43,826 nt of DNA from a virus, in the IMG/VR virus record IMGVR_UViG_3300045453_000084, positions 1 to 43,826 of that record; one strand, 5' to 3'. The notes beneath the pieces are model-generated. The model did no database searches. It saw only the letters and a program-made list of their open reading frames with translations, and was not told where the DNA came from. Position numbers and translations under genes: made by a program. Position 1 is the first letter of the stretch; every line of letters starts with the position of its first letter. Shown here piece by piece: positions 30,715 to 35,791 of this stretch.

Positions 30715-31148
30715 CAGCCCGCACCTCCGACGATCACCACCGCCTCGTCCGGCAGCAGATTGTCGTGCTCGCATTGCTGGATGTGTACGCGCGCGCCAAC
30801 GCGGTCGCTGACCTCGTTGAACTTGTCCATGGTCGTCTGGCCGAGATCGACGCCAAGGCGGAACGCCAGGATGTCGAGGTAGGTGACGACGTCCGCGCAC
30901 TCCTTGCCCAAGGCCTCACGTGCTTCGTCGAGCGTCAGGTCTCCCCGCTCGACCTTCTTGATCAGGTTCGCCAGTTCGCCCAGCTCGCCCAGCACGGCAT
31001 TGCACCAGGTCGACAAGACCCAGTCGGACCCGTCCGGCTCGCTGTGCGCCGGCTCGCCCTTCTTGTTCTTGAAGCGCGGCAGCCGCGCGACGTTGGCCTC
31101 GCGCAGGACGGCGAACGTCATGATCCGGTTCAATGCTAGTCGCTGCAT
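30714..31148 (-). CDS. MazG-like nucleotide pyrophosphohydrolase
   Basis: 144 aa; MTFAVLREANVARL at 31121 is an alternative start. All-alpha MazG/NTP-PPase helices: AVLGELGELANLIKKVERGD with the metal-binding ExxE, and KECADVVTYLDILAFRLGVD with the ExxD set. A C-terminal helix KFNEVSDRVG follows. It should hydrolyse (d)NTPs or a related alarmone to NMP and pyrophosphate; phage MazG proteins have been linked to lowering stress signals. Coupled to the HD gene. Confidence 0.86.
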   Translation of the reverse strand: MQRLALNRIMTFAVLREANVARLPRFKNKKGEPAHSEPDGSDWVLSTWCNAVLGELGELANLIKKVERGDLTLDEAREALGKECADVVTYLDILAFRLGVDLGQTTMDKFNEVSDRVGARVHIQQCEHDNLLPDEAVVIVGGAG

Positions 31149-31173
31149 CCGAGCCCCCGCCCGTTGTTGAAGT

Positions 31174-31644
31174 TCAGGTCTTCTTGCGCTTGACGACGAG
31201 AGAACGGTTGAGCGCGGCGAGCTCGCGCTGCAGCGCGCTGAGCTTCGACTTCACGCCCGAGACCTCGTGCGGCTGGAGCTCGCCGTCCTGCAGCGATTCG
31301 CGCGTCGCCTTCAGCAGCTCGGCGGCGGAGATCGTGGCCTGCACGGCGCTCTCCAGCGGGCTCGCCTGCCCGCCCGGCTCGACGCCGACGGCGAGGCGAC
31401 GGAACAGCTCGAGGAAGATCGGCGCGTGGCCGGCCTTCAGCAGCAGCGCCTCGACGCCCAGCGCCTGGTGCAGCCCGATGCGCTGCGGCGCCTCGGGGTC
31501 GCTCCACTTGGCGACCAGCGACGTCGACACGGTCACGCCGGCGGCCTGGTTGGTCAGCGCCCGCGAGATCGCCTCGTCACCCAGCACGGCGATCGACTGG
31601 TGGACGGCGTCCTCGATCGAGTTGGGAGTGCGGAGCTTGGTCAT
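31174..31644 (-). CDS. CII-like phage regulatory protein
   Basis: 156 aa. The N-terminal half has an HTH-like order (IEDAVHQSIAVLGDEAISRA, VTVSTSLVAKWSDPEAPQRI) that recalls the phage CII/regulatory family of P2-like phages. The C-terminal part (about 100-156, SALQRELAALNRSLVVKRKK) is a coiled coil ending basic. It is the first gene of the leftward middle operon. Its ATG sits inside the 12-bp hairpin of repeat copy G, so initiation may be structure-controlled. Confidence 0.65.
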   Translation of the reverse strand: MTKLRTPNSIEDAVHQSIAVLGDEAISRALTNQAAGVTVSTSLVAKWSDPEAPQRIGLHQALGVEALLLKAGHAPIFLELFRRLAVGVEPGGQASPLESAVQATISAAELLKATRESLQDGELQPHEVSGVKSKLSALQRELAALNRSLVVKRKKT

Positions 31645-31712
31645 CGGCGCACCTGCGCCGATGACCGGCGGGCGGCAGCGCCTTCACAGGCGCGAGAGCC
31701 CGCACCGCGCAG
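31639..31712 (-). repeat. Dispersed structured repeat, copy G
   Basis: Read leftward: GGTGCGGGCTCTC, outer stem GCGGGC/GCCCGC, inner stem GCGCCT-gtga-AGGCGC, GCTGCC, then a perfect 12-bp hairpin GGTCATCGGCGC / GCGCCGATGACC with a 4-base loop. The ATG of the CII-like gene lies in its 3' arm. Confidence 0.87.
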
Positions 31713-31814
31713 AATGGACAAGAACATCATGTGCGGCAGCTCCCGGGCGTTCTCACAAGACGGGCGCAACCGACGCGCGCACCATGGCGGCCGATGCCAC
31801 TTGCTTCGCCACCG
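31713..31814. other. Non-coding gap between two repeat copies
   Basis: About 100 bases between repeat copies G (minus) and H (plus), with no convincing gene. Promoters for the CII-like gene (leftward) and the small-gene cassettes (rightward) would be expected here; I see no clear -35/-10 pair. TGTAAT at the start of copy H could serve as a -10. Confidence 0.3.
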
Positions 31815-31899
31815 CCTGTAATCGGAACCGCGCGGGCTCCCGGCCTTCGCGCCGCGAAGCCCTGCCGCCCGCCCGTGCGCGGCGCGCGCGCCGCGCACC
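31815..31899 (+). repeat. Dispersed structured repeat, copy H
   Basis: CTGTAATCGGAACCG replaces the usual GTGCGCAA box. Then outer stem GCGGGC/GCCCGC, inner stem GGC(C)TTCGC/GCGAAGCC, CCTGCC, and a perfect 12-bp palindromic hairpin GTGCGCGGCGCG / CGCGCCGCGCAC (31875-31898). First part of small-gene cassette 1. Confidence 0.87.
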
Positions 31900-32008
31900 C
31901 CATCCCCGCCTTCCACAGCTCGAACCGGCCGCCGGCCGTCGAGCGGACTCGACGGACCGGCGCCCGGCCCTCTACCAAGGAGGTGCCAACCAACCCTTGG
32001 GAGCTTTC
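31900..32008 (+). promoter_or_regulatory. Structured leader of small-gene cassette 1
   Basis: Starts with CCCATCCCCGCCTTCCACA, then a nested stem: GCCGG/CCGGC enclosing CGTCGAG-cgga-CTCGACG. A second hairpin CCAAGG (31975-31980) / CCTTGG (31995-32000) follows, whose 3' arm runs into the GGGAG Shine-Dalgarno, 8 bases before the ATG. Cassettes 2 and 3 show the same order with different, still paired, bases. Confidence 0.75.
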
Positions 32009-32179
32009 ATGCCCGAGACACCGAAGCTGCGACTTGTCGTCGACAACGACGCCGGGCGCGAGGCCGAGTTCGCGCGCTCGCTTGAATTCTGGAGCCGGCT
32101 CACGGCCGTCGCGCCCGATCCCGACGGCGAGCACATCTGGCTGCTGCTCGACGACAAGGCGCCCGCAGCGACAGGCTGA
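32009..32179 (+). CDS. Cassette 1 small protein, 56 aa
   Basis: MPETPKLRLVVDNDAGREAE start, GGGAG upstream. C-terminal module WSRLTAVAPDPDGEHIW then LLLDDK is shared almost exactly with the cassette 2 protein, while the N-terminal halves differ. No family known. Plus strand, opposite to the CII-like gene on its left. A 64-base exact copy of its 3' end is found again at 33460. Confidence 0.7.
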   Translation: MPETPKLRLVVDNDAGREAEFARSLEFWSRLTAVAPDPDGEHIWLLLDDKAPAATG

Positions 32180-32222
32180 GGCGGCGCGGCTCATGCCGCG
32201 CTCGCTTCTGACTTTGGCACTG

Positions 32223-32306
32223 CCTGTAATCGGAACCGTGCGGGCTCCCGGCCTTCGCTGCGCGAAGCCCTGCCGCCCGCCTGTGCGCGGCGCGCGCGCC
32301 GCGCAC
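32223..32306 (+). repeat. Dispersed structured repeat, copy I
   Basis: Nearly identical to copy H over its whole length, including the 12-bp terminal palindrome (32283-32306), with the small changes CCGCGC to CCGTGC and a different loop. Opens cassette 2. Shows that repeat, leader and gene were duplicated together. Confidence 0.87.
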
Positions 32307-32416
32307 CCCATCCCCGCCTTCCACAAGAAAAACCGGCAAGCCCGGCATCGACTCACGTCGACACCGGGCCGCCGGCCCTCTACCCAGGAGTTACCACACA
32401 CACTGGGAGAACTCTC
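32307..32416 (+). promoter_or_regulatory. Structured leader of small-gene cassette 2
   Basis: CCCATCCCCGCCTTCCACA as in cassette 1, then a long nested stem: CCGGC/GCCGG, GCCCGG/CCGGGC, TCGAC-tcac-GTCGA. The second hairpin is CCCAG (32383-32387) / CTGGG (32403-32407), with GGGAGA starting in the 3' arm, 9 bases before the ATG. Stem bases differ from leader 1 but pairing is kept. Confidence 0.75.
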
Positions 32417-32602
32417 ATGGCCGAAAAATCCCTCGCCGCCTCGCGCGCGCGCCGCCGAGCGGCGGCCCGCGCCGAGCGCGAAGCCGACATCGCGCGCAAG
32501 ATCGACTACTGGAGCCGGCTCACGGCCGTCGCGCCCGATCCCGATGGCGAGCACATCTGGATCCTGCTGGCCTCGCCGAAGGCCGGCGGCGCGAAGGGCT
32601 GA
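32417..32602 (+). CDS. Cassette 2 small protein, 61 aa
   Basis: Basic, helical N-terminus (SLAASRARRRAAARAEREAD) joined to the shared C-terminal module WSRLTAVAPDPDGEHIW then ILLASPKAGG. Paralogue of the cassette 1 protein in its second half only (51 bases with one mismatch). Function unknown; a small regulator or anti-host peptide would fit. Confidence 0.7.
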   Translation: MAEKSLAASRARRRAAARAEREADIARKIDYWSRLTAVAPDPDGEHIWILLASPKAGGAKG

Positions 32603-32624
32603 GGCTTCGGCCCTCACGCCGCGA

Positions 32625-32719
32625 TCCCCGTCTTGCACAGGAAGCGACGGCCCGCCGGGATCGACTCCCGACGAGCCGCCACCCACCATGGAGCTGCGAA
32701 ACAACCATGGGTGAGTCTG
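32625..32719 (+). promoter_or_regulatory. Structured leader of small-gene cassette 3
   Basis: CCCCGTCTTGCACA matches the start of leaders 1 and 2. It has a shorter nested stem with CGGGA/TCCCG. The second hairpin is CCATGG (32686-32691) / CCATGG (32705-32710), followed by GTGAG and the ATG 9 bases later. The upstream dispersed repeat is absent from this cassette. Confidence 0.65.
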
Positions 32720-32950
32720 ATGAGCGAGAAGATGGACATGCTGGACCGGCAGGTCCTGGTCGCGGCCACGCTGGCGGCGGGCTGCTGCGACGCCGACACC
32801 AGCGGCGAAGAGGCGGTCGAGATGTTTCAGGAGGTGCTGTTCCGTCTCGCCGCTCGCGGCGGCGTGTCGAAGATCCACGGGGCGGCGCGACGGACGGCGC
32901 GCGATCGACTCGCCCATCAGGCCGCCTCCCCCAGCAGGAAGGCGCGATAG
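32720..32950 (+). CDS. Cassette 3 small protein, 76 aa
   Basis: 76 aa from MSEKMDMLDRQVLVAA, with GGTGAG upstream. Helical with an acidic middle (CCDADTSGEEAVEMFQEVLF) and basic C-terminus. It is unrelated to the cassette 1 and 2 proteins but uses the same leader type. Its 3' end overlaps the convergent gene 32917-33234 by 34 bases. Confidence 0.65.
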   Translation: MSEKMDMLDRQVLVAATLAAGCCDADTSGEEAVEMFQEVLFRLAARGGVSKIHGAARRTARDRLAHQAASPSRKAR

Positions 32951-33234
32951 GCCTCGGCGCGCCGCAGGATCGAGCGCGTGTCCGCCGGCGTCCGGCCGGG
33001 CGGCACCCGCTCGAGGCGGACGTCCTCGCAAGCGAGCTGCAGGGCGCGGCGGGCCAGGAGCCAGCCGGGATAGTCGTTCGCCGTGACACAAGGCTTCAGC
33101 CAGGCCTCGAAGGCGCGCGCCCGGGCCAGCAGGTCGGCGGTGCGAGCCCGCCGGAAGCCGACGCTCGACCGCGCTTCCTCCAGTGCGGCACCGCGCAGAT
33201 CGCCCGGCATGAAGACTGAAGCCCGCTTGCTCAC
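32917..33234 (-). CDS. Hypothetical early phage protein, 105 aa
   Basis: GTG start overlapping the upstream TGA (GTGA). Helical, basic: TADLLARARAFEAWLKPCVT, YPGWLLARRALQLACEDVRL and a C-terminal SILRRAEAYRAFLLGEAA. Third gene of the leftward Cro-side operon. No family recognised. Confidence 0.7.
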   Translation of the reverse strand: MSKRASVFMPGDLRGAALEEARSSVGFRRARTADLLARARAFEAWLKPCVTANDYPGWLLARRALQLACEDVRLERVPPGRTPADTRSILRRAEAYRAFLLGEAA

Positions 33235-33485
33235 GCCACACTCGCTTCCGATGCCTGCCCTGCAGGCACCGCCATGCCGGGCATCCACCCCTCCGGGATC
33301 AGCGCCTCGAGCTTGCGGATCGAGCTCGACGAGGGGCTCCAGGCCGCCTCGTCCATGTCGCGGGTGACCGTCTCGGCCAGCCCCGCCTGCCGCGCCAGGG
33401 TGGCGGGCTTCAGGTCGTTGGCGGCCGCCCAGCCCCGGATGCGGTCGAGGACGGCCGAGTCGCGCCCGATCCCGACGGCGAGCAC
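33231..33485 (-). CDS. XRE-like small HTH protein, 5' end disturbed
   Basis: About 84 aa if the GTG at 33485 is used; the start is uncertain. Core: VLDRIRGWAAANDLKPATLA, then QAGLAETVTRDMDEAAWSPS and IRKLEALIPEGW, a Cro-like HTH. Its N-terminal codons read antisense through a 64-base exact copy of the 3' end of the cassette 1 gene, so the native start may have been replaced by this insertion. No good Shine-Dalgarno is seen. Second gene of the leftward operon. Confidence 0.65.
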   Translation of the reverse strand: MLAVGIGRDSAVLDRIRGWAAANDLKPATLARQAGLAETVTRDMDEAAWSPSSSSIRKLEALIPEGWMPGMAVPAGQASEASVA

Positions 33486-33530
33486 ATCTGGCTGCTGCTC
33501 GACGACAAGGCGCCCGCAGCGACGGGCTGA
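33460..33530 (+). pseudogene. Remnant of a cassette small-gene 3' end
   Basis: 33460-33523 is identical over 64 bases to 32109-32172, the last coding third of the cassette 1 gene, and is followed by the same in-frame TGA (33528-33530) and a similar GGCGGC trailer. There is no start codon or leader. It lies antisense to the N-terminal region of the XRE-like gene. Confidence 0.8.
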
Positions 33531-33541
33531 GGCGGCGGCCC

Positions 33542-33778
33542 TCACGCCGCGCTCTCCTTCTCGCCTTGAGCCTGCCGGGCCGCGATCTCTGCCAGGACCT
33601 CGAGCGTTACGCCGTCGATCTGGCGCTTGGCGGCGGATGCCACCGCGCCTTTCCAGACGCGGTCCGGAAGAGAGTTCCTGTTCCGCCACTGCCGAACGGT
33701 TCCGACTTCCTCTCCCAGGTCCTCGGCGAGGTCGGCGGGACTTCCCCAGCGGTTGATGATCTCGGAAAACGTCTGCAC
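33542..33778 (-). CDS. Cro-like regulator, carph-isopro domain family
   Basis: 78 aa with a GTG start at 33778. Pattern FSEIINRWGSPADLAEDLGE, GTVRQWRNRNSLPDRVW, then ASAAKRQIDGVTLEVLAEIA is the small HTH found opposite CI repressors in alphaproteobacterial prophages. It should bind the same operators as CI and favour lysis. A TTGACG-17-TATCGT promoter ends 7 bases before the GTG, so the mRNA would start at or next to the start codon (leaderless), which explains the lack of a Shine-Dalgarno. Confidence 0.85.
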   Translation of the reverse strand: MQTFSEIINRWGSPADLAEDLGEEVGTVRQWRNRNSLPDRVWKGAVASAAKRQIDGVTLEVLAEIAARQAQGEKESAA

Positions 33779-33785
33779 GGAGCGC

Positions 33786-33814
33786 ACGATACAATCTGTA
33801 TCGCTGCACGTCAA
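33786..33814 (-). promoter_or_regulatory. Leftward early promoter (PL-like / Pcro)
   Basis: Read leftward: -35 TTGACG (33814-33809), 17-base spacer, -10 TATCGT (33791-33786). Operator O1 covers the -10 and spacer, O2 touches the -35. Same geometry as the rightward promoter at 35763-35791. Confidence 0.75.
33787..33803. promoter_or_regulatory. Operator O1
   Basis: Perfect 17-bp dyad CGATACA-atc-TGTATCG, covering the spacer and -10 of the leftward promoter. Confidence 0.88.
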
Positions 33815-33828
33815 TACACCTCGTATCG
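33812..33828. promoter_or_regulatory. Operator O2
   Basis: CAATACA-cct-CGTATCG, 25 bases from O1 start to start; two imperfect half-site positions. Overlaps the -35 of the leftward promoter. Confidence 0.8.
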
Positions 33829-33835
33829 CCCCGCG

Positions 33836-33852
33836 CGATACGCTGTGTATCA
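33836..33852. promoter_or_regulatory. Operator O3
   Basis: CGATACG-ctg-TGTATCA, 24 bases from O2; its last base is the A of the cI ATG. Probably the autoregulation site of the repressor gene. Confidence 0.8.
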
Positions 33853-34502
33853 TGCGCTCACAGGGCGAGAGACTTGCTCATGCCATCCGGGTGGCCGGCT
33901 ACAAGCAGCGCGCGGACTTCGCCGCCGTGGCCGGCGTTTCGCCGGTGACGTTGCGTCAGCAGATCAACCGCGATTCGGTGCCCGCGGATGCCGCCGCCCT
34001 CTACGCGCGCAAGCTGCGGCGGGTTGGGCTCACGACAGATTGGCTGCTGTTCGGCAAGGGCCCTGCCCCGGGCCAGTCACCGGTTCGTCCCGACATCGCT
34101 CCCGACGACGGCGACAGGCCCACGGTTCCCGTGCAGCACTTCGTAGGGGCCGGCGACGAGGTGCATCTGTTCGACGACGATGCGCGAGTCGACACGACCA
34201 GCGCGCCGCCAGGCTACGAGAACGGTTCGGCCGTGATCGTGCGTGGCGATTCGATGCGTCCGACCTTCCAGCCGGGAGACCTGCTGTTCTTCCGCCAGCG
34301 CGAGGAGCCGCCGAAGAAGGACACCCCCCTCCGCGCGGTCATCGTGCAGGTGACGGACGGGCCGCTTCTCCTGAAGAAGATCCTGCCCGGCACGAAGCGC
34401 GGCCTCTTTCACCTGATTAGCGTCAATCCGACGACGCCCGAAATGCTCGATCGACATGTCGACAGCATCGCGCGCATCGGCTGGATCAAGCCGTCGGAAT
34501 AG
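33852..34502 (+). CDS. CI-type repressor with S24 peptidase domain
   Basis: 216 aa. HTH at about 1-45 (RLAHAIRVAGYKQRADFAAV, GVSPVTLRQQI), linker, then LexA-like domain: cleavage site VGAG (Ala100-Gly101), GDSMRPTFQPGDLL with nucleophile Ser134, and Lys175/Lys176 in PLLLKKIL. It should hold lysogeny and be inactivated by RecA-stimulated self-cleavage after DNA damage. The ATG is at the edge of operator O3 with no Shine-Dalgarno, suggesting a leaderless or very short 5' end. Convergent with the gene after it. Confidence 0.95.
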   Translation: MRSQGERLAHAIRVAGYKQRADFAAVAGVSPVTLRQQINRDSVPADAAALYARKLRRVGLTTDWLLFGKGPAPGQSPVRPDIAPDDGDRPTVPVQHFVGAGDEVHLFDDDARVDTTSAPPGYENGSAVIVRGDSMRPTFQPGDLLFFRQREEPPKKDTPLRAVIVQVTDGPLLLKKILPGTKRGLFHLISVNPTTPEMLDRHVDSIARIGWIKPSE

Positions 34503-35252
34503 TCACCAGGCGCAGGCCTTTCTCAGCGGTTCGATCGACGTCGACAGCGTTCCGAGCGTGAACGACATCTCCCGCGCACCGTCGCGATAGGGCGTGACCC
34601 TGATCAGCAAGGTCTCGCGGCCGAGGAGGGACTTGAGGAAGGGCACGGCCTGGCCACCGTTCCACAGCCCCGCCGCCTTGGAGTCGGTCGACGCCCGCCA
34701 GGTGGTCTGGACCGGCTTGTCCTTGTCGAGACGGTAGAGCACCGGCACTTCGTCGCCGAGGAACCAGTCCGCCGAAATGAACACGTTTGTGACGCGCTCG
34801 CGGCAGCGCAGATGCAGTATCGGCCGGGTGCGGCGACCGTAGGTCGAAGCGATGTCCTCATCGGCCGGCAGCGCCAGGAAGACGGTCGCCGAGCCATCCA
34901 TGCGCGATGTCTCCTCGCGCACGATCCAGTCGGGCCGCGGCGGCGGCAGTGCCGCGGCCGGAGGGGGTGCCGACGACGTCGTGATCGCGGGCGCAGCCGC
35001 CAGAGGCTCGAGGCACTTGCGCATGGCATCGAAGGTTCCCTCTTTGGCACACTCCCCGAGCTGTTCCATGCTCAGTTCGTAAAGTCTTTCCATGGAGTCG
35101 ATCGTCTTCAGGAGACTGTCGACGCAGTCGCGCAGGTCGTTCGGTTCTGTCGCCGTCTTGCATCGCTCGATGGAGGCGTCGCCACCGGGCGTCTGGGCGG
35201 CGGCCGGCAGCGGCGCCAGGGCAACCACCGCTACCGCAAGGATTCTCAACAT
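34503..35252 (-). CDS. Secreted TagO/VasI-like protein
   Basis: 249 aa. Signal peptide LRILAVAVVALAPLPAAAQ, Cys pairs in IERCKTATEPNDLRDCVDSL and LGECAKEGTFDAMRKCLEPL, a Pro/Ala linker (about 85-107), then a beta-sandwich domain resembling VasI/TagO: ADWFLGDEVPVLYRLDKDKP, FLKSLLGRETLLIRVTPYRD. The same domain type is found in prophage genes beside repressors and is likely a lysogenic-conversion factor in the periplasm. It is adjacent to the cI stop and convergent with it. Confidence 0.75.
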   Translation of the reverse strand: MLRILAVAVVALAPLPAAAQTPGGDASIERCKTATEPNDLRDCVDSLLKTIDSMERLYELSMEQLGECAKEGTFDAMRKCLEPLAAAPAITTSSAPPPAAALPPPRPDWIVREETSRMDGSATVFLALPADEDIASTYGRRTRPILHLRCRERVTNVFISADWFLGDEVPVLYRLDKDKPVQTTWRASTDSKAAGLWNGGQAVPFLKSLLGRETLLIRVTPYRDGAREMSFTLGTLSTSIEPLRKACAW

Positions 35253-35748: not shown

Positions 35749-35765
35749 CGATACAGTTCGTATTG
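35749..35765. promoter_or_regulatory. Operator O4
   Basis: CGATACA-gtt-CGTATTG. Overlaps the -35 of the rightward promoter. Confidence 0.82.
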
Positions 35766-35791
35766 ACATTGGACGATACATTCTGTATCGC
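35763..35791 (+). promoter_or_regulatory. Rightward early promoter (PR-like)
   Basis: -35 TTGACA (35763-35768), 17-base spacer, -10 TATCGC (35786-35791). It is overlapped by O4 and O5 exactly as the leftward promoter is by O2 and O1. Should drive the operon from 35947 to the integrase. Confidence 0.78.
35774..35790. promoter_or_regulatory. Operator O5
   Basis: Perfect 17-bp dyad CGATACA-ttc-TGTATCG, 25 bases from O4, covering the spacer and -10 of the rightward promoter. Confidence 0.9.

Follow-up and report, generated by a model that had tools for sequence, protein, structure and literature searches.

The window analysed here, an IMG/VR virus record of 43,826 bp with siphovirus head, portal, terminase and tail genes, contains three copies of a two-hairpin element, and the evidence supports its being real, repeated and conserved in cis ahead of small plus-strand genes. 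We favour, at a probability of about 0.5, the reading that the first hairpin (H1) is a tR1-like terminator of a leftward early transcript and the second (H2) the ribosome-binding-site hairpin of small genes read in the lysogeny direction.

As read from its genes, the locus is a λ-type immunity region of a λ-like prophage. A CI-like S24 repressor gene lies on the plus strand (33852–34502; phrog_4, E = 1.9e-23; PF00717), and a Cro-like HTH gene on the minus strand (33542–33788; phrog_409/phrog_35; start codon uncertain) would be the first of the leftward early operon. Between the two are three operator repeats, GATACNNNNNGTATC, at 33788, 33813 and 33837 (33788–33851; one mismatch in the middle copy), an O_R-like set overlapped by a sigma-70-like leftward promoter (33814–33786, minus strand). 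Two further copies at 35750 and 35775 (35750–35789) form an O_L-like set; spacing within the sets is about 25 bp, and one mismatch is carried by two of the five copies. The leftward operon runs from cro through a possibly truncated ORF and o4 (gene X; 32917–33243, minus strand; conserved in the related contig L010), whose 3′ end overlaps the third small gene, to the elements and then a CII-like regulator gene (31174–31644, minus strand; phrog_101, E = 6.8e-6; Pfam PF06892, E = 1.6e-4), the next gene downstream of the three elements on the early strand. The start codon of this CII-like gene sits in a perfect 12-bp hairpin, GGTCATCGGCGC-AGGT-GCGCCGATGACC (31639–31666, minus strand), with an SD-like AGGT loop; the start of λ cII likewise carries a stem-loop. 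Elsewhere in this viral record, positions 2004–2085 of the minus strand hold a suhB/mmgR sRNA (Rfam RF00519, 51.8 bits), whose terminator, CTTTTTTTG, is strong.

Three leader boxes of the form CCCCG[CT]CTT[CG]CACA, reported in a preliminary description of this DNA, were found at exactly 31904, 32312 and 32626, with none on the other strand. The H2 arms and the 8–9 nt spacing before ATG that it described were likewise present in all three leaders, with 8, 9 and 9 nt separating H2 from the start codons (ATG) at 32009, 32417 and 32720. H2 spans 31975–32000 in leader 1 (CCAAGG/CCTTGG, the 3′ arm running into the SD GGGAG at 31999–32003), 32383–32407 in leader 2 (CCCAG/CTGGG; SD GGGAG at 32405–32409) and 32686–32710 in leader 3 (CCATGG/CCATGG; SD GGGTGAG), all on the plus strand, the last being orthologous in L010. 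H1 spans 31925–31967, 32333–32375 and 32648–32678, respectively. No leader begins at 31815, where the range given in that description starts; this position falls inside a 126-nt stretch, 90% identical, which is common to copies 1 and 2 only and lies just upstream in each (31804–31929 and 32212–32337). Two of the three copies are therefore not independent and, given also that the first two small ORFs are paralogs, the locus consists of one unit present in duplicate and a third that has diverged, leaders 1 and 2 being a recent duplication. A perfect 24-nt palindrome, GTGCGCGGCGCGCGCGCCGCGCAC, occurs in identical form upstream of leaders 1 and 2 (31875–31898 and 32283–32306) and is missing from leader 3 and from L010.

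Codon-position GC supports plus-strand coding for all three small ORFs, and conservation supports it most strongly for o3. Contrary to the suggestion that each leader drives a different small ORF, o1 (32009–32179, 56 aa; codon-position GC 0.74/0.49/0.84) and o2 (32417–32602, 61 aa; 0.71/0.61/0.89) are paralogs with 57% identity. The third, o3 (32720–32950, plus strand, 76 aa), encodes a small helical protein and is conserved in L010 (62%). It is clearly coding on the plus strand: amino acid identity to its L010 counterpart was 0.60, compared with 0.38 ± 0.04 expected under neutrality and reached in 0 of 2000 simulations. Its predicted structure comprises three helices (mean pLDDT 80), and a structural match search with the model gave nothing convincing. 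A minus-strand protein running across the leaders was considered and rejected, since those minus frames that stay open lack conservation (0.37) and the one that is conserved is interrupted by stops. The 3′ end of o1/o2 recurs in a fourth, degenerate copy (33456–33554; 95% identical to o1 over 96 nt), which lies directly beyond cro and continues into an ORF on the minus strand, maybe a truncated HTH gene, for which no family match was found.

The element is also present in two other viral contigs. L010, reached through a relative of o4, carries a leader 3-type element, o3, o4, a CII-like gene and cro, in the order seen in the window. Its H1 has a different sequence and the same fold, and only some 45 nt separate it from where the CII-like gene probably starts; given this gap, a promoter for o3 would have to lie within it or overlap the CII-like gene, like pE. 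The CII-like gene of L010 (6590–7064) is apparently frameshifted between its N-terminal part and the conserved core, either through assembly error or in reality. All copies share the H2 loop GGAGNTRCNAMMCAMM. A scan of 2.9 million viral contigs for this loop plus TGG and GAG, in which complementary arms, H1 and a start codon were not demanded, returned 11 stretches, one of them L010 and one L019; none of the others held a convincing element. L019 holds a further covarying copy, in which a 7-bp H2 (CCATCGG/CCGATGG) has H1 upstream and a start codon and an 83-aa ORF downstream. This small ORF lies antisense in an immunity region with the window's layout, where an HTH repressor, a YdaS/P22_Cro-type gene and a gene of 123 aa come before it and an HTH gene after it. 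Elsewhere, L019 shows only weak similarity to the window, including an early HD phosphatase (31%), and recurrence at the same genomic position in an otherwise unlike phage is the strongest evidence for a real element. In all three phages the elements are on the cI strand, opposite to that of the early operon, and fall between the cro side and the gene in cII position.

Beyond these phages, the loop pattern gave a single match, attributed to chance and lying within an unrelated gene, in 385 sampled Alphaproteobacteria, against 5 reversed-pattern controls. Protein scans of viral contigs gave no relatives of o2 or o3, genome scans gave none of o1/o2, and searches of phages and plasmids with o2, o3 and o4 yielded nothing beyond chance matches; neither the long shared 5′ repeat nor the CCCCG-box pattern was found elsewhere. 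Profiles of o3 and o4 retrieved nothing from 397 genomes in the order to which a distantly related MAG belongs, and o4 nothing from 385 genomes of the class, both weak blanks run without a positive control. Family searches with o4 and its counterparts gave no convincing match, and we found no description of this arrangement in open-access texts.

All five H1 hairpins are more stable on the minus strand than on the plus strand: −38.4 vs −35.6 kcal/mol in leader 1, −37.5 vs −29.4 in leader 2, −26.0 vs −16.7 for the core in leader 3, and −23.3 vs −17.9 and −20.5 vs −15.0 for the remaining two, from L010 and L019. Seven G·U pairs occur on the minus strand and none on the plus strand (three and none in leader 2); the same seven positions are A·C or C·A mismatches on the plus strand (three in leader 2, two C·A in the leader 3 core at 32648–32678, and one each in L010 and L019), and the minus-strand stems are nearly continuous. 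Wobble pairs are absent from leader 1, whose C·C mismatch is uninformative, and the second mismatch in L019 (C·U on the plus strand) remains unpaired on the minus strand. Minus-strand loops are GUGA and GCAA (GNRA), UCCG (UNCG) and, twice, GUCGA, compared with plus-strand loops of no known stable kind. Read on the minus strand, leader 1 (31925–31967) forms a terminator-like hairpin of 18 bp with the UCCG loop and the tail TTCGAGCTG, leader 2 (32333–32375) a canonical-looking intrinsic terminator of 19 bp with the GUGA loop and the tail TTTTTCTTG, ending in TTTTTCTT, and leader 3 (32642–32684) a 19-bp uninterrupted stem with a GUCGA loop, the longest uninterrupted hairpin in the window when both strands were scanned.

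Over the five hairpins, T makes up 23 of the 45 nt following H1 on the minus strand (9 nt each), against 7 of the 45 that follow it on the plus strand; the minus-strand richness has a binomial p of 4e-8 at the window T frequency of 0.157, and of 4e-4 when leaders 1 and 2 are omitted. A canonical U-tract is confined to leader 2, where the only terminators predicted in 31100–34600 also lie (minus strand); the other H1 tails have 4–5 T in 9. As the strand test was devised after viewing the data, and two of its five hairpins are duplicates, the case for the minus strand is strong but not conclusive. The preliminary description had placed its nested stem, H1, in the same plus-strand device as H2, a placement against which mismatches, loops, stability and T-rich tails all speak; its view of a repeated cis element that keeps its pairing as the sequence changes is supported, but not H1 as part of a plus-strand device. 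Because H2 pairing is wholly Watson–Crick, the strand of H2 cannot be told in this way.

It is unlikely, in our judgement, that H1 and H2 together form one plus-strand riboregulator, responding to a ligand, a protein or temperature and gating translation of the small ORFs. Such a device would be in keeping with the conserved pairing and loop and with the 3′ arm of H2 abutting the SD in all five leaders, the start codon following 4–7 nt later, but in H1 the A·C mismatches, the loop types and the tails all point to the minus strand. Rfam covariance models gave no match in the region at gathering score (chance matches only, E of 0.45 and above). Nor is the SD more occluded than at other genes: its predicted openness at 37 °C is 0.02–0.37 in the leaders, values that fall inside the spread given by 35 other start sites, whose median is 0.33. 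The thermosensor role suggested earlier appears unlikely because predicted openness hardly moves between 15 and 60 °C (0.28–0.33, 0.01–0.09, 0.29–0.42, 0.24–0.48 and 0.17–0.29 in the five leaders), with no melting transition, and the 5′ arms (CCAAGG, CCCAG, CCATGG, CCATGG and CCATCGG) are not those of a fourU element. A new riboregulator class, also proposed, is not claimable from five copies in three phages.

A further arrangement, which we consider improbable, is that both hairpins constitute a nutR/tR1-like unit on the leftward transcript, the plus-strand GGAG/GAG being incidental or belonging to a separate small gene. Read leftward, H2 (as H2′, with its G/U-rich loop) precedes the terminator H1′ as nutR precedes tR1 between cro and cII, a pyrimidine-rich stretch stands before H2′ on the minus strand, and H2 is slightly more stable on that strand in four of five cases. 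However, GAG and a start codon follow H2 in five of five leaders, including L019, where the start codon is present though absent from the search pattern, and o3 is clearly coding on the plus strand; moreover, the H2 loop (13–15 nt) is unlike boxB, which in λ nut sites has a GNRA-like pentaloop, and inspection revealed no clear boxA.

In DNA this rich in GC, chance alone yields many SD hairpins: the window holds 32 with arms of at least 5 bp, a 10–16 nt loop, GAG and a start codon, compared with about 30 in shuffles, and 4 with arms of at least 6 bp, compared with 9.4. Dinucleotide-shuffle z-scores for H1 plus H2 were −5.9, −5.9 and only −1.0 in leaders 1, 2 and 3. The loop GGAGNTRCNAMMCAMM has three matches in the window and none in 100 shuffles, a count qualified by the motif having been derived from the copies tested. 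When the 3′ arms of the four distinct H2 copies were re-dealt, only 1 of 24 permutations paired fully, which gives modest support to kept pairing. That nothing here is regulatory, and that chance GC-rich hairpins were merely copied by duplication, is very improbable and already disfavoured by L019: the frequency of SD hairpins in shuffles and the recent duplication of copies 1 and 2 agree with it, but H1 stems of 10–19 bp persist while their sequence is almost wholly altered between copies, an orthologous leader exists in L010, and L019 was recovered, at the same genomic position, from among 2.9 million contigs.

Returning to H1 as a leftward terminator and H2 as a ribosome-binding-site hairpin, we infer that leftward transcripts terminate at H1, that H2 gates translation, that o1–o3 have a P_RE-like promoter and that antisense control operates. 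Leftward early transcription from the O_R-like promoter would read cro, then o4, and would cross o1–o3, which lie on the opposite (cI) strand, before reaching the CII-like gene. Each small gene would bear a two-faced 5′ element. On the gene's own mRNA, H2 would form a short hairpin whose loop is A/C-rich and conserved, its 3′ arm holding the start of the SD and possibly limiting or gating translation. H1 would act mainly as RNA of the leftward transcript, where a stem of 11–19 bp, a stable loop and a T-rich tail would make it an intrinsic terminator or attenuator hairpin in the position of λ tR1, so that transcription of the lytic strand would halt shortly before the promoter of the small gene and before cII. 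On the early strand the hairpins do occupy that tR1-type position, the order being cro, o4, H2′/H1′ and the CII-like gene in the window and L010, and cro, gene X, H2′/H1′ and an HTH gene in L019. Transcripts stopped at H1 would cover the small ORF and H2 as antisense RNA. Positions, pairing, loop conservation, H1 strand asymmetry, o3 coding and three-phage synteny can be read in the sequence itself; no convincing plus-strand promoter for the small genes was found.

More doubtful, though possible, is a family of two-faced RNA elements in which about 100 bp combine, on one strand, a hairpin that gates translation of small genes read in the lysogeny direction with, on the other, a lytic-strand attenuator. 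Were this so, lytic transcription would make terminated antisense RNA against the small genes, and cII would be reached only when the terminators are overrun. Coding genes on a P_RE-like strand would then have control elements back to back with lytic-strand terminators, and sense/antisense control of lysogeny would become directly testable. A practical lesson is that counts of A·C mismatches versus G·U pairs can reveal the strand that a conserved hairpin serves.

As in the λ immunity region, a cro-like gene, a terminator-like element and a cII-like gene occur in order, the repressor is on the opposite strand with three operators between it and cro, and the elements are antisense, towards cI. 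Unlike λ, there is an extra gene, o4, between cro and the terminator, the P_RE-like strand carries small coding genes with their own RBS hairpins, and the element is present three times. The tR1 terminator of λ is Rho-dependent, whereas the elements here look intrinsic. The λ order is cro-nutR-tR1-cII, and pE overlaps the first cII codons, antisense to cro (PMC5869508). RNA thermometers such as fourU and ROSE likewise set the SD at the base of a hairpin that precedes the start codon, and a phage fourU thermometer is known from blyA of SPbeta (PMC10586365); unlike these, our leaders have no UUUU opposite the SD and no predicted melting at 15–60 °C. L010 and L019 resemble CP-933P ydaS-ydaT-type regions in having a YdaS/P22_Cro-type first early gene, and gene X/o4 would occupy the place of ydaT, whose product is described as the CII equivalent (PMC9986795), but o4 and its counterparts, unlike that type, are without a convincing family match. 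The plan is that of a λ-type switch; its unusual feature is a series of small coding genes on the P_RE-like strand, each having an RBS hairpin back to back with a terminator-like hairpin of the lytic strand. The locus therefore appears to be a variation on a familiar switch arrangement rather than a novel kind of riboswitch or thermosensor.
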